A stretch of DNA of 64,000 bases from a virus, in IMG/VR virus record IMGVR_UViG_3300028844_007948, positions 62,001 to 126,000 of that record; one strand, written 5' to 3'. Of the stretch, positions 34,915 through 47,746 are shown piece by piece. Each line of letters starts with the position of its first letter. Within the stretch, counting starts at the first letter, position 1. The notes under the pieces are model-generated. The model ran no database searches, had not been told where the DNA came from, and was given only the letters and a program-made list of their open reading frames with translations. The position numbers and the translations under genes were made by a program.

Positions 34915-35378
34915 TTAGATCCATGACTCTTGAAGACATTCCTTTTTACAATGAAATCAGGAATGAGTGTAGAGATTTTCTGCACGACTCTTCTTTTTAT
35001 ACTACGGAAGAATCTTACAGTTGGTTTAAAACAAATAATCCTAAGTTTTTTATATATGAGATAGGTGGAAATAAAATAGGATATTTTAGAACCAGTAATT
35101 GGACCGACAAAGGTTGCTATATAGGCTTAGATATACATAAAAAATTCAGAGGAAAAAAGCTAGCATTTAAAGCTTATCAAGATTTTTTTGTTTTTTTAAA
35201 AAATAAGATTGGAAAAATAAATTTTTATGAATTTTACTTAGAGGTTTTAAGTTTTAATAAAGTAGCTATAAATCTCTATAAAAAACTTGGGTTTACTGAA
35301 TTGTCTAAAACACCAACTGGAAAAAACAATGATTTTATTTATAACATAAAAATGAAACTGATTTTAAAAAATGAGTAA
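34911..35378 (+). CDS. GNAT-family N-acetyltransferase (155 aa)
   Basis: It has the GNAT fold pattern: MIRSMTLEDIPFYNEIRNEC, the strand IGYFRTSNWTDKGCYIGLDI, the acetyl-CoA loop HKKFRGKKLAFKAYQDF (R/Q-x-x-G-K/A form) and EVLSFNKVAINLYKKLGFTE. It lies directly before a dTDP-glucose-dehydratase-like gene and a PLP aminotransferase, so acetylation of a 4- or 3-amino-deoxy sugar nucleotide is the likely job. It overlaps the dehydratase start by 8 bases. Confidence 0.85.
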   Translation: MIRSMTLEDIPFYNEIRNECRDFLHDSSFYTTEESYSWFKTNNPKFFIYEIGGNKIGYFRTSNWTDKGCYIGLDIHKKFRGKKLAFKAYQDFFVFLKNKIGKINFYEFYLEVLSFNKVAINLYKKLGFTELSKTPTGKNNDFIYNIKMKLILKNE

Positions 35379-36360
35379 AAAAGTTTTAATTACAGGTGGG
35401 TGTGGGTTTATTGGTCACCATTTAGTAGAGCATTTACTTCGTCATAGTGATTATGAAATTGTAATTCTAGACAAGCTAACATATGCAAGCATGGGGCTAG
35501 ATAGATTAAGGAGTTTTTCTGGATTAACAAATGAACGAGTTAAGTTTTTTTGTCATGATTTCACTTTACCCATAGAAGGCGGCCTTAAGAAAGAGATTGG
35601 AGATGTAAATATTATAGTTCATATGGGGGCTGAATCTCATGTAGATAATAGTATACTAGACCCAAGAAAGTTTTTTCATAATAATATTAATGGAACAGTT
35701 GAAATGCTTGAGTATGCAAGAACGCTCAAAAATTTAGAAATGTTTTTTTACTTTAGTACTGATGAAGTATTTGGTTCTGCTCCTGAAAATTTTTGCTACG
35801 GAGAGTGGGATAGGCATAAACCAACAAACCCATACTCGTCAAGTAAGTCTTGCGCTGAACAAATATGTGTTTCTTATGAAAACACATACAAACTCCCCAT
35901 AATGGTAATTAATGTCATGAATGCTTTTGGAGAAAGGCAACATGTAGAAAAATTTATACCTTTATGCATCAAGAGAATTTTAAATAAAGAAAAAATATTT
36001 ATCCATTCTTATCCAGACAAGAAAAAGGCTGGAAGCAGATTTTATATACATGCAAGGAATATTGCTGCAGCTGTGCTGTTCTTACTAGAAAAAGGTGTTA
36101 TTGGTGAAAAGTACAATGTAGTCGGAGAAGAGGAGGTTGATAATCTATCGATGGCTAAAATGATATCTCAATTTATAGGGGAAGAATTGGAATACGAAAT
36201 GGTTGATTTTCATAAAGATAGGCCTGGACATGACTTGAGATACTCTTTGTGTGGAGAGAAGATGAAAGATATGGGGTGGAGTATCCCTATTCCTTTTCTT
36301 GAATCACTTAAAAATACTGTCGAATGGACAGTTAAAAATCAAAAATGGCTTGAAGAATAA
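35371..36360 (+). CDS. dTDP-glucose 4,6-dehydratase-like SDR enzyme
   Basis: The 329-aa protein has VLITGGCGFIGHHLVEHLL at the N-terminus, HMGAESHVDNSILDP, the strand and catalytic FSTDEVFG, and YSSSK near residue 155 (Tyr/Lys pair). NVMNAFGERQHVEKFIP and SRFYIHARNIAAAVLF are characteristic of RmlB/RfbB-type dehydratases. It converts a nucleoside-diphosphate hexose to the 4-keto-6-deoxy form that the downstream aminotransferase can use. Its stop overlaps the next start (TAATG). Confidence 0.85.
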   Translation: MSKKVLITGGCGFIGHHLVEHLLRHSDYEIVILDKLTYASMGLDRLRSFSGLTNERVKFFCHDFTLPIEGGLKKEIGDVNIIVHMGAESHVDNSILDPRKFFHNNINGTVEMLEYARTLKNLEMFFYFSTDEVFGSAPENFCYGEWDRHKPTNPYSSSKSCAEQICVSYENTYKLPIMVINVMNAFGERQHVEKFIPLCIKRILNKEKIFIHSYPDKKKAGSRFYIHARNIAAAVLFLLEKGVIGEKYNVVGEEEVDNLSMAKMISQFIGEELEYEMVDFHKDRPGHDLRYSLCGEKMKDMGWSIPIPFLESLKNTVEWTVKNQKWLEE

Positions 36361-37445
36361 TGATACCTCTTTTTAAAGTACATTACCCAAAAGGTGTTGG
36401 GGAAAAAATAGATGAAGTTTTTAAATCTGGATTTATAACAGAAGGAGAATATTCAGATAAATTTGAAAAAGAATTTGGGGAATATATAGGAAATGATAAT
36501 TGTTGTTTAACAAATAGTTGTACATCGGCAATTACTTTGGCTTTGAGGTTATCTGATGTTGGCCCTGGTGATGAAGTTATAAGTTCGCCCATGACCTGCA
36601 TGGCTACAAATGAACCTATATACAATGCTGGGGCTAGTATAGTTTGGGCTGATATAGAAAAAGACACAGGAAACATTGATCCAGAAAGTGTTTTAAGAAA
36701 AATAACAAAAAAAACAAAAGCAATTATATCTGTTCACTGGGCTGGACAGCCTTTTAACATTGATTTAATAAATAAAATCGCAAAAGATCATAATCTAAAA
36801 GTTATTGAAGATGCGGCTCATGCATTAGACTCAACATATAACGGTCAAAAAATTGGCAATCATAGTGATTTTATTTGTTTTTCGTTTCAGGCAATAAAAC
36901 ATTTAACAACTGCTGATGGAGGAGCTTTGCTTTGCAAAAATAAATCTGATTACGAGAAGTCTAAATTATTAAGATGGTTTGGTTTAAACAGGAAATATAA
37001 AGGCAGTAAATGGGAGCAAGATATCACACTCTCTGGTTATAAATTTCATATGAATAACATAACGGCTGTGATAGGCTTGGAGCAGATGAAATATATTAAT
37101 GATTTAACCCTTGCGCATAAAAACAATTCAAAATTTTATGACAAAAACATTAACAATCCAAAAATTATAAAATTAAAAAGGGGCAGCGAGTATGAGTCTT
37201 CTTCTTGGATATATTCCATACTTTGCGACACTAGAGAAGATCTTCAAGATTTTTTAAAAAATAAAAAAATTCATACAGATGTCGTTCATGTACGGAATGA
37301 TAAATATTCTGTTTTTAAAGATTTTAAAAAATGCAATTTGCCTAATTTAGATTTTTTTGAATCAAGATTATTAAACATACCTGTTGGATGGTGGCTATCA
37401 AAATCAGATTTAAACTATATAGTAGATTGCATTAATTCCTATTGA
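36360..37445 (+). CDS. DegT/DnrJ/EryC1/StrS-type sugar aminotransferase
   Basis: This is a 361-aa PLP enzyme. KVIEDAAHALDSTYNGQKIG and FICFSFQAIKHLTTADGGAL contain the cofactor-contact Asp and the Schiff-base Lys (about residue 180). The N-terminal TNSCTSAITLALRLSDVGPG and EVISSPMTCMATNEPI complete the family pattern. It would aminate the keto sugar produced by the upstream dehydratase; GNAT could then acetylate it. Together these three genes form an N-acetylated amino-deoxyhexose module. Confidence 0.9.
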   Translation: MIPLFKVHYPKGVGEKIDEVFKSGFITEGEYSDKFEKEFGEYIGNDNCCLTNSCTSAITLALRLSDVGPGDEVISSPMTCMATNEPIYNAGASIVWADIEKDTGNIDPESVLRKITKKTKAIISVHWAGQPFNIDLINKIAKDHNLKVIEDAAHALDSTYNGQKIGNHSDFICFSFQAIKHLTTADGGALLCKNKSDYEKSKLLRWFGLNRKYKGSKWEQDITLSGYKFHMNNITAVIGLEQMKYINDLTLAHKNNSKFYDKNINNPKIIKLKRGSEYESSSWIYSILCDTREDLQDFLKNKKIHTDVVHVRNDKYSVFKDFKKCNLPNLDFFESRLLNIPVGWWLSKSDLNYIVDCINSY

Positions 37446-37475
37446 AAAATTTTCATAAAAATATATTATAAAACA

Positions 37476-38378
37476 ATGGATACAACACTAGGAGTCATAG
37501 GAAATGGATTTGTGGGATCAGCGGCTGTCCATGGATTTAATCATCATGTAAAAAGTGTGAAGGTTTTTGATAAGGATGAAAACAGAAGATCTCACACACT
37601 TGAAGAAACTTTAGATCAAGATGTAGTATTCGTATGCCTTCCTACTCCAATGTCTCTATCTGAACAAGGCAAGTGTGATCTATCTATTATTGAATCTTTT
37701 TTTGCTGAAGCTTCCGAGCTTAAACCTGATTGCACTTTTGTTATAAAGTCTACCGTTCCAGTAGGAACAACCTCTAGACTTCAAAAACAGTATGATAAAT
37801 TAAAAATTTTACATTCCCCTGAGTTTCTTACCGCAAGGACTGCTCTTTTAGATTTTATAACCCCATCTAGAAACATAGTAGGATATCCAAAAGATTTTTA
37901 TTCAAACCTTCATGCTGTCCCTAATAAAGTTGTAGAGCTTTTTGAAAAAAGATTTCCAGGAGTAAAAACATTTTTAATGGACAGCGATTCTACAGAGATG
38001 ATTAAATATGTAGCCAATTGTTTTTTTGCTACTAAAATCAGCTATTTTAATGAGGTAAAACTCTTTTGCGATAAGATTGGATTAGATTATAATAAAATTA
38101 TGGAAGGTGTTTTGTCTGATGGCAGGATAGGCATAAGTCATTATCAAGTCCCAGGCCATGATGGCAAGTTAGGTTTTGGAGGCACCTGCTTCCCAAAAGA
38201 CATAAACTCTTTCATTAATCTAATGAAAGCTAATGGCGTAAACTCTAAAGTTTTACAAGCAGCATGGGATACAAATGTCTTGGTTAGACCAGAAAAAGAT
38301 TGGGAAAATTTTTCCGCCGCAGTTTCGACTGGAACACAAGATTTTGATACATCGGGATGCGGCCATGATCACATTTAA
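37476..38378 (+). CDS. UDP-glucose/GDP-mannose dehydrogenase-like, short form (300 aa)
   Basis: The Rossmann start LGVIGNGFVGSAAVHGF, VVFVCLPTPMS, the segment FVIKSTVPVGTTSRLQ, HSPEFLTARTA and the catalytic GFGGTCFPKDINSF (Cys at about residue 239) identify the family. Oxidation of a UDP-sugar to the uronate is expected. Standard enzymes are 390-450 aa; here the C-terminal nucleotide-sugar-binding domain is essentially missing, so the protein ends soon after the catalytic domain. Whether it is active alone cannot be judged from sequence. Confidence 0.8.
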   Translation: MDTTLGVIGNGFVGSAAVHGFNHHVKSVKVFDKDENRRSHTLEETLDQDVVFVCLPTPMSLSEQGKCDLSIIESFFAEASELKPDCTFVIKSTVPVGTTSRLQKQYDKLKILHSPEFLTARTALLDFITPSRNIVGYPKDFYSNLHAVPNKVVELFEKRFPGVKTFLMDSDSTEMIKYVANCFFATKISYFNEVKLFCDKIGLDYNKIMEGVLSDGRIGISHYQVPGHDGKLGFGGTCFPKDINSFINLMKANGVNSKVLQAAWDTNVLVRPEKDWENFSAAVSTGTQDFDTSGCGHDHI

Positions 38379-38393
38379 AAATTATAGATAAAT

Positions 38394-39326
38394 ATGAAGT
38401 ATACAGTTATAGGAGGAGCAGGTTTTATTGGAAGTCATTTAGTGGATGCACTAATAGATGAAGGTCATGAGGTTGTAGTTTTTGATAATTTCTCAACTGG
38501 CCAACCAGACAACATAAATGAAAAAGCTGAGCTATTTAGGATAAACCCTGCATATTTTAATACTATTGGCGAAAAGATGGATTCATACAGGCAAGCAATT
38601 AATGCATCTGTCGGCTCAGATGCTATATTTCACCTTGCAGCTTTGCCAAGAGTACAGCCTTCATTATTGGATCCCGTAGGAACTAATAAGGCTAATGTGG
38701 ATTCATTGGTTGGAGCTCTTGATTTTGCAAAAAATATTGGAGTTAAGAGATTTGTTTATAGTGCAAGTTCTTCTGCCTATGGAGACGCTTCAGTTTTCCC
38801 AACTCCAGAGGATCACCCCACTAATCCGAAAAGCCCTTACGGACTCCAAAAACTTATAGGAGAACAGTATTGTAAAGTTTTTTCGGATTGTTATGGTTTA
38901 GATACTGTAAGTTTGAGATATTTTAATGTTTACGGTTCCAGAGCTAGTTCGGGTTCTGCATACAGCTTAGTTCTTGAGGTATTCTTCAAACAACGTCTTT
39001 ATAAAAAACCTCTCACAATAACTGGAGACGGAGAACAAAAACGAGACTTTACTTTTGTTGGCGATGTAGTGAAGGCAAATATCCTTGCCGCTCAATCGGA
39101 CCAAGAGTTTAAAGGTGATATTTTTAATATAGGAAATGGCGACAACAGAACAATAAATCAAGTGGCTGATTTAATAGGAGGAGAAAAAGAGTATATTGAG
39201 GCTAGGTTAGAGCCTAAAGAAACCCTAGCTGATATTTCAAAAGCGAAAGAGGTTTTAGGCTGGGAGCCTTCTATGACCTTAGAAGAATGGATTCCTCAAA
39301 GAAAAAAAGAATTACGCCTTGATTGA
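38394..39326 (+). CDS. UDP-hexose 4-epimerase-like SDR enzyme (310 aa)
   Basis: YTVIGGAGFIGSHLVDALID, FDNFSTGQPDNI, the strand VYSASSSAYGD, YGLQK (YxxxK), LRYFNVYGSRA and GDGEQKRDFTFVGDVVKA are the elements of GalE/WbpP-type UDP-sugar epimerases. It follows the UDP-sugar dehydrogenase, so 4-epimerisation of a UDP-uronate or UDP-HexNAc is plausible. Confidence 0.85.
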   Translation: MKYTVIGGAGFIGSHLVDALIDEGHEVVVFDNFSTGQPDNINEKAELFRINPAYFNTIGEKMDSYRQAINASVGSDAIFHLAALPRVQPSLLDPVGTNKANVDSLVGALDFAKNIGVKRFVYSASSSAYGDASVFPTPEDHPTNPKSPYGLQKLIGEQYCKVFSDCYGLDTVSLRYFNVYGSRASSGSAYSLVLEVFFKQRLYKKPLTITGDGEQKRDFTFVGDVVKANILAAQSDQEFKGDIFNIGNGDNRTINQVADLIGGEKEYIEARLEPKETLADISKAKEVLGWEPSMTLEEWIPQRKKELRLD

Positions 39327-41466: not shown

Positions 41467-43902
41467 ATGGAAATAAAAGTAAAGAAAAGAAACGGAAGGT
41501 TAGAAGACTTTAAAGTAGAAAAGATAAATGCAATATCCGAAAGAGCGTGTGAAGACATTGATAATGTTTCTGCAAGTGAGGTCGTACTTGATGCCCAGTT
41601 ACAACTTTACGATAAAATTACTACTTCTGAAATAGACAAGGCTTTAATCCTTAGTTCTAGAGAAAAAATACAAAAAGAACCAAACTATAGTTTTGTAGCG
41701 TCTAGGCTTCTTTTAAATACGGCCTATAAAGAGGTGTTTAAAGAAGGGGTCGATTCTGATACTTTCAAATTACAATATAGGAAAAGTTTCATACAAAATA
41801 TTAAAAAACTATCCAAGGTGGGTAGAGTTAATGCTAAGCTTTTGGATTTCGACTTAGTAAAACTTTCTGAATCCTTAAAAATAAGGAGAGATTTAAATTT
41901 TAAATATTTAGGCATACAAATTTTAACTGATAGATACTTCATTAGGCACGAAGATAAAATCATGGAAGCTCCTCAAAGTTTCTGGATGAGGGTCGCTATG
42001 GGTCTAGCAATAAATGAAGAAAATAAAAATGAAAAAGCTATAGAGTTCTATAATCTTTTTAGTCAATTTTTATACACACCTTCCACTCCTACTCTTTTTA
42101 ACAGTGGCACAGTTCGATCTCAGTTAAGCTCATGCTATTTAAATACTTTTGATGATAGTATAGATGGAATTTTTGATGGAGCTTGGCAAGAGGCAAGAAA
42201 GTCAAAATATGCTGGAGGGCTTGGGCTTGATGTTACGCCTTTTAGGTCTACAGGCTCCTTCATAGAAGGCACTAATGGTATCTCAAGTGGTCTTGTGCCT
42301 TGGTTGAAGATATATAATGATCTATTAGTTGCAGTCAATCAAGGCGGAAAGCGTCCAGGTGCAGGATGTGCATATCTTGAGCCTTGGCACTTAGATTATG
42401 AAGATTTCCTAAACTTAAGAAGGAATACAGGGGATGATCGTTTACGATGTCATGACATGAATACAGCTTCATGGATACCAGATGAGTTTATGCGTAGAGT
42501 TAAGAACGAAGAAGATTGGTATTTCTTTGATCCAGGCGAGATGGTTTATGAAGACGGAAAGACTCTTCACGATTATTTTGGTAAAGATTTTGATGATAGA
42601 TATGAAGATGCATGTCGAGCTGCAGAATATGGCCACATCAAAAACTTCAGAAAAATCCCTGCCAAAGAGCTCTGGAAAAAAATGCTGAAAGTGCTTTTTG
42701 AGACTTCTCACCCATGGAATACTTTTAAAGATCCATGCAACATTCGTTACACAAATCAGCATGAAGGTACTGTCAGAAGCTCTAATCTTTGCACAGAAAT
42801 TACTCTGCACACTAAAGCCTCAAAATACAAAGAAGGGGAAAAGGTTGAGCATGGAGAAACCGCAGTCTGTAATTTAGGCTCTATTAATTTATTAAATCAT
42901 TTAAAAGAAAACAACTCTATAGATTTTCAGAAATTAAAATCAACTATACATACCGCTATACGTATATTAGATAATGTTATAGATTTAAATTTTTATCCAA
43001 CTAAAGAGTCTAGTAATTCTAATTTAAGAAATAGGCCAATAGGCCTAGGAATGATGGCTATTCATGATGTTCTACACAAAATGAACATAAAAATAGATAG
43101 CGATGAAGCCGTAGCTTTTAACGATAATTTGTTTGAATTTTATTCTTGCAATGCAATCCTTGCCAGCTCTATTCTTGCAAAAGAAAAAGGATCTTATGAA
43201 ACTTACAGTGGCTCTCTTTGGAGCAAGGGGGTGTTCCCTTTAGATTCATATAATAACTTAATGCTGTATAGGGGTAATAACACAAAGTCAACAGAAAACC
43301 TTAAAGAATGGGGTCGAGTCAGAGATCATGTTCGTCAATTTGGCATGAGGAACTCTAATGTTATGGCTATAGCTCCAACGGCTACTATAGGATACATAAA
43401 CGGTGTAGAGCAAAGTATTGAACCAAATTTTTCAGTATTATTTGTTTACGAAAATAAGAGTGGTAATTTTTATATAACCAATCCTCATTTCATTAAAGAT
43501 ATGAAGGATAGGGGTTTATGGAATGCAGAAATAGCTAATTTTATTAAAACTATAGATGGCGATTTATCCCTTGCAAATGGAGATATACCTCAAGATATAA
43601 AAGAAAAATATAAAACCGCTTTTGACAGAGACATGATGAGTTTAATAGATTCTAATTCTGCACGTCAGAAATGGATCGATCAAGCTGTAAGTTTTAATCT
43701 TTACAACAAAGGGACTTCACTAAAATACTTAAATGATATCTATATGAAATGTTGGGAGTGTGGTTTAAAAACCACCTATTATTTAAGAAATAGAGCTGCA
43801 AGTAAAATTGAAAAGTCTGCCAGTTCGGACACTTCATCTACTGAAACTTCGTGCAGTATTGAAGCCATGAAAAATGGAGAGGTTTGTGAATCCTGTCAGT
43901 AA
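41467..43902 (+). CDS. nrdA: Ribonucleoside-diphosphate reductase alpha subunit (class I)
   Basis: 811 aa. An ATP-cone is present at residues ~1-90 (KVKKRNGRLEDFKVEKIN). The active-site residues are all visible: redox pair Cys223 (SSCYLNTF) and Cys468 (TAVCNLGSINL), thiyl Cys442 with Asn440 and Glu444 (SSNLCTEI), and the Tyr pair for radical transfer in TYYLRNRAASK. The C-terminus ends CESCQ, the swinging redox Cys pair. It reduces NDPs to dNDPs with the beta subunit at 46730. The two subunit genes are separated by a Nudix gene and a late-type gene set. Its 3' end overlaps the Nudix gene. Confidence 0.95.
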   Translation: MEIKVKKRNGRLEDFKVEKINAISERACEDIDNVSASEVVLDAQLQLYDKITTSEIDKALILSSREKIQKEPNYSFVASRLLLNTAYKEVFKEGVDSDTFKLQYRKSFIQNIKKLSKVGRVNAKLLDFDLVKLSESLKIRRDLNFKYLGIQILTDRYFIRHEDKIMEAPQSFWMRVAMGLAINEENKNEKAIEFYNLFSQFLYTPSTPTLFNSGTVRSQLSSCYLNTFDDSIDGIFDGAWQEARKSKYAGGLGLDVTPFRSTGSFIEGTNGISSGLVPWLKIYNDLLVAVNQGGKRPGAGCAYLEPWHLDYEDFLNLRRNTGDDRLRCHDMNTASWIPDEFMRRVKNEEDWYFFDPGEMVYEDGKTLHDYFGKDFDDRYEDACRAAEYGHIKNFRKIPAKELWKKMLKVLFETSHPWNTFKDPCNIRYTNQHEGTVRSSNLCTEITLHTKASKYKEGEKVEHGETAVCNLGSINLLNHLKENNSIDFQKLKSTIHTAIRILDNVIDLNFYPTKESSNSNLRNRPIGLGMMAIHDVLHKMNIKIDSDEAVAFNDNLFEFYSCNAILASSILAKEKGSYETYSGSLWSKGVFPLDSYNNLMLYRGNNTKSTENLKEWGRVRDHVRQFGMRNSNVMAIAPTATIGYINGVEQSIEPNFSVLFVYENKSGNFYITNPHFIKDMKDRGLWNAEIANFIKTIDGDLSLANGDIPQDIKEKYKTAFDRDMMSLIDSNSARQKWIDQAVSFNLYNKGTSLKYLNDIYMKCWECGLKTTYYLRNRAASKIEKSASSDTSSTETSCSIEAMKNGEVCESCQ

Positions 43903-44341
43903 AGCTTCTGGAGTAACATTAGTAGTTGGTAATGAAATATTGCTAGCTAAAAGATGCGAATTATGGAATGGAGAACCAGTGCCTTTAGCTGGCTATTGGA
44001 GTATTTTTGGCGGAGCTATTGAAAAAGGGGAGAGTGCCATGTCCTGTAGCATTAGAGAGATGAAAGAAGAAACTGGAGTTGATATAGAAATATCTGACCT
44101 TTCTTACATACGAGATATCTTTAATGATCATAGCGATGGTCATACAACTCAGTTTACTGTATATTTTTCTAAAAATAAAAGTAAACCTGTTATTGTTTTA
44201 AATGACGAGCATACTGAATTCAAATGGTTTGACATTAATGATATAGAGAATTTTCCATATAAAATTATGGACGATTTAAAAGACTGTATAATTAGATATA
44301 GATGTTACCTAAAGGATCTTAAAACTAAATATGGATTATAA
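43874..44341 (+). CDS. Nudix hydrolase (155 aa)
   Basis: A perfect Nudix box is present (G-x5-E-x7-REUxEExGU): GAIEKGESAMSCSI followed by REMKEETGV, residues ~56-78. These enzymes hydrolyse nucleoside-diphosphate-linked compounds. Beside RNR a house-cleaning role on (d)NTPs is plausible; a nucleotide-sugar substrate is possible given the nearby cluster. The start overlaps nrdA by 29 bases; a GTG at 43886 is an alternative. Confidence 0.9.
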   Translation: MERFVNPVSKASGVTLVVGNEILLAKRCELWNGEPVPLAGYWSIFGGAIEKGESAMSCSIREMKEETGVDIEISDLSYIRDIFNDHSDGHTTQFTVYFSKNKSKPVIVLNDEHTEFKWFDINDIENFPYKIMDDLKDCIIRYRCYLKDLKTKYGL

Positions 44342-46090: not shown

Positions 46091-46681
46091 TTGGACTTTA
46101 TACTTTTCAGCTTATTAATACTTTCCTCTTTAACATCGGTTGGCTTTTATTTAAAATTTAAAAAAACTTTTATATATTTAAAAGATATAGAAAATGATAA
46201 TTTTTTAACCCAAGCTAGATTCAAAGATTTAGAAAAAAATTTAGAGCTAAAAGAAAATCAACATAGACTTAGCATGGAATCGTTAAAAGAATCTTTTGAG
46301 CATGAAAGAAAATCTATAGAAGAAAAAAAGGTAGAAATACAAACCAAGGAAAAAGGTTTCCAGATTGCTGTGGCAAAGCTCACCGAAGATCTTGAAGAGC
46401 AAAAAGAATTAAAATCTAAAGTTACTTCTCAGAAAAAAAGTAGCGAAGTTAGGTTAGGACATATAGCAGAAACCCTTGCTCCTTTTCTAGATCAATTTGA
46501 ATTTGAACCAGAAGAATGTTGCTTCTTGGGAAAGCCAATTGATTACGTGTCCTTTGGGGAAGAAGAAATTACATTTATAGAAGTTAAAAGCGGCCAAAGC
46601 CAACTAAGCACAAAGCAAAGAAAGATTAGAGATCAAGTCAAAGCTGGAAAAGTTTCTTGGAAAGAAGTGAGAATAAAATAA
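46091..46681 (+). CDS. Membrane-anchored Holliday-junction-resolvase-related protein
   Basis: The start is TTG at 46091. An N-terminal transmembrane helix (FILFSLLILSSLTSVGFYLK) is followed by a long coiled coil (residues ~30-120). The C-terminal domain (RLGHIAETLAPFLDQFEFEP, FLGKPIDYVSFG, ITFIEVKSGQSQLSTKQRKI) matches the Endonuc_Holl-type PD-(D/E)XK family (PF10107): Asp of PIDY, E-x-K of IEVKSG and the RQR-IR tail. It would cut or bind DNA at the membrane. The biological role of this family is not established. Confidence 0.8.
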   Translation: MDFILFSLLILSSLTSVGFYLKFKKTFIYLKDIENDNFLTQARFKDLEKNLELKENQHRLSMESLKESFEHERKSIEEKKVEIQTKEKGFQIAVAKLTEDLEEQKELKSKVTSQKKSSEVRLGHIAETLAPFLDQFEFEPEECCFLGKPIDYVSFGEEEITFIEVKSGQSQLSTKQRKIRDQVKAGKVSWKEVRIK

Positions 46682-46729: not shown

Positions 46730-47746
46730 ATGAATAAAGAAAAAACTGGAGATATATTAGGGAAAGAACTTGCTGGAGTGAATCAAATTTTACCCCATAA
46801 ACATAAATATGTTTGGGATTTATTCCTAAAAAGTTGTGCCAATAATTGGATGCCTACTGAAATATCAATGCAAAATGATATAAAACAATGGAAAAATGAT
46901 GAAATCACAGAAGATGAAAAGTTACTTGTTAAACGCTGTCTCGGATTTTTTGCTGGATCTGAGTCTTTGGTTGGTAACAATCTGTTTACTGTGGCCGCTA
47001 GATTTATTACGGATCCTGAGTGCGGTCAGTACATCATGCGTCAGGGCTTTGAAGAAAGTCTTCACAATCATACGATAGTCTATATTTGTGACAGTCTTGA
47101 TTTAGATGTGAAAGAAGTTTATGAGGCTTATCAGAATATTCCTAGTATAAAAGCTAAAGATGACTTTCTGATGTCTATAACTAACGATGTTAATAGACAA
47201 GATTTTGTTCATCATACAAAAGAAGGAAAACAAGAGCTTCTTCGTAACTTTTTAACCTACTGGATAGTTTGCGAGGGAACTTTTTTCTTTAGTGGTTTTG
47301 CAATGCTTCTTGCTTTAGGTAGGCAAAACAAATTACAAGGAATCTCTGATCAAATTAAATATACATTAAGAGACGAAACCAATCATATAGCTTTTGGGAC
47401 TTATGTTATAAATAAAATTATCGAACAAAATCCGTCAATCTGGACTAAAAAAATGCAAGATGAATTTGTTGATCATATGAAGAAAGCGGTTGATCTTGAA
47501 ATTGCCTATGCTCATGATGTGCTTCCTACTGGCATATTAGGTCTTAATGCAGATATGTTTGTTGACTACATGCATTATATTGGCAATCGTAGATTAGAGT
47601 CAATTGGTATAGATTTTCGCTTCCCTAGTGATAAAAATCCTTTTCCTTGGTTAGGTGAAGTTGTTGATGTTCAAGCCATGGGTAACTTCTTTGAAAGAAG
47701 GGTTAGGGAGTACCAACAAGTTGGTTCTCTTGACGATGACTTCTGA
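46730..47746 (+). CDS. nrdB: Ribonucleoside-diphosphate reductase beta subunit, class Ic-like
   Basis: 338 aa. The six metal ligands are visible: Glu78 (ESLVGNNL), Glu109 and His112 (EESLHNHTIVYI), Glu182 (CEGTFFFSGF), Glu216 and His219 (RDETNHIAFG). The first ligand is Glu rather than the usual Asp, and the radical-Tyr position (four after His112) is Ile116. Both features mirror the Chlamydia trachomatis class Ic enzyme (Glu89, Phe127), with identical spacing between all ligands. It should generate the thiyl radical in the alpha subunit from a Mn/Fe-type cofactor rather than a tyrosyl radical. It overlaps the next gene by 11 bases. Confidence 0.93.
   Translation: MNKEKTGDILGKELAGVNQILPHKHKYVWDLFLKSCANNWMPTEISMQNDIKQWKNDEITEDEKLLVKRCLGFFAGSESLVGNNLFTVAARFITDPECGQYIMRQGFEESLHNHTIVYICDSLDLDVKEVYEAYQNIPSIKAKDDFLMSITNDVNRQDFVHHTKEGKQELLRNFLTYWIVCEGTFFFSGFAMLLALGRQNKLQGISDQIKYTLRDETNHIAFGTYVINKIIEQNPSIWTKKMQDEFVDHMKKAVDLEIAYAHDVLPTGILGLNADMFVDYMHYIGNRRLESIGIDFRFPSDKNPFPWLGEVVDVQAMGNFFERRVREYQQVGSLDDDF

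Follow-up and report, generated by a model that had tools for sequence, protein, structure and literature searches.

A phage-encoded class Ic-like ribonucleotide reductase small subunit with isoleucine at the radical-tyrosine position

The nrdA–nrdB locus

The window, the whole 64,000-nucleotide stretch of DNA that was analysed, corresponds to bases 62001–126000 of a 163,424-base IMG/VR virus record and encodes both subunits of a ribonucleotide reductase (RNR) (Table 1). The nrdA gene is intact and is located upstream of nrdB on the same strand. NrdA scores above the cut-off of NF005544, contains one ATP cone and carries CxxC at its C-terminus. The protein can be aligned over its full length with the class I NrdA 5im3, which we take to be the Pseudomonas aeruginosa enzyme, and retains both the catalytic motif, SNLCTE, and the tyrosine dyad, within KTTYYLR. 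The nrdB ORF begins with ATG and has no internal stop codon, and no comparable frame was found on the reverse strand over nrdB. Its product is the sole NrdB of the 163-kb record. Neither NrdI nor glutaredoxin was found in the record, which is possibly a fragment.

Genes for a UvsX-like recombinase and a DnaB-like helicase are located 3' of nrdB. The nrdA–nrdB pair is retained across related phages, and the other neighbours differ. In most relatives' loci whose contig extends far enough, a gene for a matched NrdA precedes nrdB on the same strand. For NrdB, NrdA and the helicase, matches of at least 60% identity are absent from the phage records searched. Between nrdA and nrdB (46091–46681), the window encodes a PF10107 endonuclease, a relative of archaeal Holliday junction resolvase; such a gene adjoins nrdB in just 5 of the 99 related loci. 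Upstream of nrdA (35371–39326), nucleotide-sugar epimerases, an aminotransferase and a UDP-glucose dehydrogenase-like protein look like part of a glycan synthesis cluster. A tRNA-Arg (TCT) at L257:12784–12860 is the sole tRNA detected in the phage record.

Table 1. Genes and NrdB residues discussed in the text, in window coordinates
Feature	Position	Strand	Evidence
nrdA, RNR large (α) subunit, NrdAz type, 811 aa	41467..43902	+	ORF, NCBIfam, Pfam, alignment
Nudix hydrolase gene that overlaps nrdA at its end; neighbour of the RNR genes	43874..44341	+	ORF, Pfam
nrdB, class Ic-like RNR small (β, R2) subunit, 338 aa	46730..47746	+	ORF, phmmer, NCBIfam, Pfam, fold match
Glu78, first ligand of the metal site; equals Chlamydia Glu89 and is Asp in class Ia/Ib	46961..46963	+	alignment; 96/96 phage relatives
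Glu108 (second-sphere Glu) and ligands Glu109 and His112 of the EExxH motif	47051..47065	+	alignment, conservation, PMC6370689 Tables 3-4
Ile116, radical-tyrosine position; E. coli Tyr122, Chlamydia Phe127	47075..47077	+	alignment, conservation
Glu182, metal ligand; Chlamydia Glu193	47273..47275	+	alignment, conservation
Thr212, four residues N-terminal of ligand Glu216; class Id Thr191 position	47363..47365	+	column comparison
Asp215 (transfer pathway) and metal ligands Glu216 and His219	47372..47386	+	alignment, conservation
Tyr328, C-terminal intersubunit radical-transfer Tyr; Chlamydia Tyr338, E. coli Tyr356	47711..47713	+	alignment, conservation

Metal ligands and the radical position of NrdB

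In a phmmer search against the PDB, the top solved match of NrdB is Chlamydia trachomatis NrdB (1syy, E 3.1e-111), followed by other Chlamydia entries and 6y2n. NrdB scores 438 bits against NCBIfam NF005550 (cut-off 309) and matches Pfam PF00268 with an E value of 4.9e-75. Chance is no concern as an explanation of the match. From residue 15 to approximately residue 292, NrdB is aligned with the Chlamydia protein without a gap and with a constant offset of +11. The six metal ligands pair accordingly (E78/E89, E109/E120, H112/H123, E182/E193, E216/E227 and H219/H230; NrdB/Chlamydia), as do the non-ligand residues I116/F127 and Y118/Y129. The ligand list of the first-pass annotation and the Chlamydia spacing that it assigned are thus exact. 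The alignment also bears out two further claims of that annotation, namely, that the first ligand is Glu as in the Chlamydia enzyme and that the radical Tyr is lost, with Ile116 at the position of Phe127.

The residue signature reported for NrdBzc of subclass Ic comprises the ligands E,E,H,E,E,H and the second-sphere residues E and D (PMC6370689 Table 4), and the signature of NrdB is identical. As in class Ic, a redox-inert residue replaces the radical Tyr (Ile116 in the window and Val or Ile in 96 of 96 phage sequences), but Phe (or Leu), the usual class Ic residue, is missing from this position throughout the phage clade. The transfer residues W40, D215, Y211 and Y328 are present, and the cognate class I α subunit is provided by NrdA. 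Outside the phage clade, an Asp first ligand is combined with Tyr at the radical position in all 69 relatives of that type, and a Glu first ligand is combined with Phe in all 20 others, in a set sampled near the query and hence biased to close relatives rather than a census.

Conservation among phage relatives

A scan of viral contigs yielded 254 candidate relatives, the best 80 of which (at least 81% identity) were read. A second, intermediate group of marine phages exhibits ∼60% identity to the query and 58% identity to Chlamydia NrdB. The six ligands, Glu108, Asp215, Trp40, Tyr211, Tyr118 and Tyr328 are invariant in all 96 phage sequences. Position 116 is occupied by Val in 80 of these sequences, by Ile in 16 and by Tyr in none. 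Ile116 is encoded by ATA or ATT, and the Val codons are mostly GTA. On the first tree, in which the outgroup branches are very long, the Ile-bearing sequences require five independent changes. A special status of the window's Ile116 was rejected, as the residue exchanges repeatedly with Val through a single transition (ATA/GTA). Pairwise dN values among the phage relatives are ∼0.05–0.13, and dS exceeds 2 or is saturated; with dN far below dS, nrdB is under purifying selection.

Together with its two nearest relatives (L002 and L003), the window diverges from the rest of the clade at 46985–47071 (NrdB residues 86–114). Examples are Gly99 in place of an Arg that is nearly invariant elsewhere and His114 in place of Leu. 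Two related loci are of uncertain host assignment. A contig of 11 kb that is assigned to a Candidatus Woesebacteria MAG (L084) contains phage-clade nrdA and nrdB (82% identity) and is probably a misbinned phage contig. In the entry titled Acinetobacter phage MD-2021a (L082; CAKLQH020000007.1), nrdAB is flanked by rstA/rstB, a LysR regulator and other chromosome-like genes, and the entry looks like a bacterial chromosome rather than a phage.

Phylogeny and predicted fold

The outgroups of the first tree gave very long branches, and later trees were built without them and with the trait columns 78, 116 and 212 left out, and then with the intermediate phages added. The phage clade occupies one side of a branch with 100/100 support. 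In the tree without the intermediate phages, a branch with 99/100 support separates the phage clade and the Glu/Phe sequences, including Chlamydia, from the Asp/Tyr sequences. With the intermediate phages added, the class Ic-side grouping is supported at 97/93, with one Glu/Phe sequence (L159) outside. The first-pass annotation had set placement with class Ic sequences as a check beforehand, and this outcome agrees with it, subject to a long-branch warning and to the position of L159. The phage clade has a long stem (∼1.6 changes per site with the intermediates and 2.9 without them), for which long-branch effects are flagged, and the exact place of the clade within the class Ic side is therefore unsure. 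Overall, the β-subunit tree puts the clade of the window NrdB either next to or within the class Ic group.

L159 is an actinobacterial NrdB (Actinosynnema) that combines the Glu ligand with Phe and falls among the Asp/Tyr sequences. Joining L159 to the class Ic side was not rejected by an AU test (p 0.128). L159 could represent either a second origin of the class Ic pattern or a long-branch misplacement, and the combination of Glu with a non-Tyr residue may have originated more than once.

An AlphaFold model of NrdB was generated from 64 sequences (pLDDT 84.3, pTM 0.85). The thirteen best PDB matches of the model are all Chlamydia NrdB, including Mn/Fe forms, with root-mean-square deviation (rmsd) values of 1.8–2.0 Å and ∼50% identity.

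Thr212 and the radical pocket

Approximately 45–50 columns are specific to the phage clade, and several of them are located near the ligands (C181, F187 and T212), such that the cofactor could differ from that of Chlamydia. Thr212 is found in 83 of 83 clade sequences and in 96 of 96 sequences of the larger set, and the column is Ile in all 20 class Ic and all 69 class Ia relatives. Ile or Val at position 116 is always accompanied by Thr212. The changes at 116 and 212 constitute a single evolutionary event in one clade, and their co-occurrence does not amount to statistical evidence of coupling. The E. coli counterpart of Thr212 is presumably Ile234, which lines the Tyr122 pocket. Two neighbouring positions of the radical pocket thus carry smaller residues in the phage clade, with the gain of one hydroxyl group.

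A similarly placed Thr is found in class Id, in which Thr191 of the Flavobacterium johnsoniae protein is reported to form a hydrogen bond with the sequestered Tyr104 (PMC8463856). Thr191 precedes Glu195 by four residues, the same spacing as that between Thr212 and Glu216, and a crystal structure of a class Id T191I variant is available (8dq5). The source of the proton for Mn(IV)/Fe(III) reduction in the Chlamydia enzyme is not identified (PMC11883743), and, as a speculation, Thr212 might act as a proton donor in radical initiation. The replacement of Phe by Ile or Val at position 116 and of Ile by Thr at position 212 could define a functionally distinct class Ic variant, in which a small polar cavity (Thr and perhaps water) beside metal 1 would change the metal preference or supply the proton for radical initiation. 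We regard this proposal as tentative and rather unlikely to hold.

Proposed mechanism and alternatives

The nrdB product is likely to be the subunit that starts radical chemistry in a functional class I RNR of the phage, of the class Ic type, with an oxidant stored on its metals, probably Mn/Fe. The first-pass annotation had implied this mechanism too, and it has good inferential support. We infer the metal identity, oxidant and activity of NrdB, and a metal-based oxidant follows from established class Ic chemistry. The six carboxylate and histidine ligands would bind two metals, presumably Mn at site 1 and Fe at site 2. Reaction with O2 would yield a high-valent Mn(IV)/Fe(III) pair, and the oxidising equivalent would be held by this pair because the radical site lacks a tyrosine. 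The hole would then travel via Trp40/Asp215 and Tyr328 into the co-encoded NrdA, to reach its Tyr-Tyr dyad and catalytic cysteine. Ile116 would be an inert filler that is readily exchanged with Val in the clade. More speculatively, Thr212, perhaps with water in the space freed by the change from Phe to Val or Ile, may alter the hydrogen bonding near metal 1.

A metal-based oxidant of another composition, such as the dimanganese cofactor of class Id, with Thr212 involved in a changed site-1 environment, is improbable but deserves consideration, given that the Glu first ligand is common to classes Ic and Id and that the invariant Thr212 occupies the class Id Thr191 position, four residues before the second EExxH-type Glu. 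Class Id proteins universally conserve the radical-site Tyr and have Lys71 four positions beyond the first ligand (definition in PMC8463856), whereas NrdB contains Ile or Val (96 of 96 sequences) and Gly82 at these positions, and class Id membership was rejected on these residues. Phylogeny and fold are also far nearer to Chlamydia NrdB (rmsd 1.9 Å and 50% identity to the model) than to class Id (∼2.5 Å and ∼20%), and the class Id α subunit lacks an ATP cone, one of which is present in this NrdA. Membership in class Ie, which is characterised by substituted ligands and an NrdI partner, was likewise rejected; the six ligands are intact, and NrdI was not found in the possibly incomplete record.

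It is very improbable that NrdB is an ordinary diiron-tyrosyl radical enzyme whose radical has moved to Tyr118 or another nearby Tyr. Tyr118 lies just two positions away from Ile116 and never varies within the phage clade, but it is equally conserved in relatives that retain the radical Tyr, as the Asp-ligand relatives contain Tyr at the 116 position and nearly always at the 118 position too. It is also present in Chlamydia, and this distribution identifies it as a general fold residue. The first-pass annotation had named Tyr118 in the radical site as the finding that would overturn its reading; the alignment places Tyr118 on Chlamydia Tyr129 instead, and Tyr118 was rejected as the radical residue. 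Moreover, the first ligand is Glu, and it is Asp that pairs with a radical Tyr (69 of 69). A non-RNR homologue of R2, such as an R2-like ligand-binding oxidase (R2lox), or an inactive decoy is a similarly implausible identity. R2lox proteins use Mn/Fe and likewise lack a tyrosyl radical (PMC3824934), but NrdB scores only 72 bits against the R2lox profile (cut-off 194) and contains Tyr328, whereas R2lox has no C-terminal transfer tyrosine. Both the upstream matched NrdA, present in most loci that reach that far, and the low dN relative to dS also argue against an oxidase or a decoy.

Class Ic enzymes show that the synthesis of DNA precursors can be started by a metal pair instead of a protein radical. 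If the class Ic reading is true, mechanistic studies could draw class Ic variants from a natural source, the marine phages, and the demand for metal during infection could be deduced from sequence. The Ile/Val116–Thr212 pair provides a concrete testable feature.

Comparison with known systems

A bioRxiv study of February 2026 (PMC12918982) describes 269 marine-virus α sequences (GOV 2.0) near NrdAz, named 'subclass Ic-like', whose β subunits contain Ile or Val at the radical position. In addition, PMC3824934 credits Högbom 2010 with earlier R2c examples of Leu, Ile and Val at this position. The Ile variant, which the first-pass annotation did not know as characterised, thus has published precedents. 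The same annotation proposed an adaptation to nitrosative or oxidative stress, which finds no support here; the nitric-oxide argument had already been made for cyanophage P-SSP7 (PMC6370689), and PMC12918982 instead reports that its group is anti-correlated with iron.

The window NrdB shares with the 'subclass Ic-like' clade a marine viral origin, proximity to NrdAz and replacement of the radical Tyr by Ile or Val. No clear difference is apparent, and the window NrdB is an additional member of this reported but uncharacterised group, with membership judged from the published description rather than from sequences. PMC12918982 separates its group from class Ic by the residue alone, whereas the β tree presented here puts the clade beside or inside class Ic. 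That study left the cofactor open and even considered a metal-free enzyme, where the full ligand set, tree and fold argue for a two-metal site of the Mn/Fe type.

Chlamydia trachomatis R2c (1syy, 4d8f and 4m1i) has the same six ligands and spacing, second-sphere Glu and Asp, transfer residues and predicted fold, and its sequence is 52% identical. The window NrdB differs in Ile/Val for Phe127, Thr for the Ile four residues before Glu227, Cys181 and Phe187 near Glu182 and an acidic DDDF C-terminus, and its NrdA differs from that of the Chlamydia system in having one ATP cone. The class Id NrdB proteins of Flavobacterium johnsoniae and Leeuwenhoekiella blandensis share the Glu first ligand and the Thr191-equivalent Thr, but the window NrdB lacks the radical-site Tyr and the Lys71 equivalent and is only ∼20% identical to them. 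The Cyano SP (class O) β subunit of P-SSP7 is also a phage RNR protein with a Glu first ligand and no radical tyrosine. It differs in its second-sphere Asp (Glu in the window NrdB) and ligand spacing and branches away from class Ic (PMC6370689), and Cyano SP membership was rejected on residues. As far as literature searches show, the placement of the β subunit on the class Ic side, the match to the full signature and the Ile/Val116–Thr212 pairing are new.
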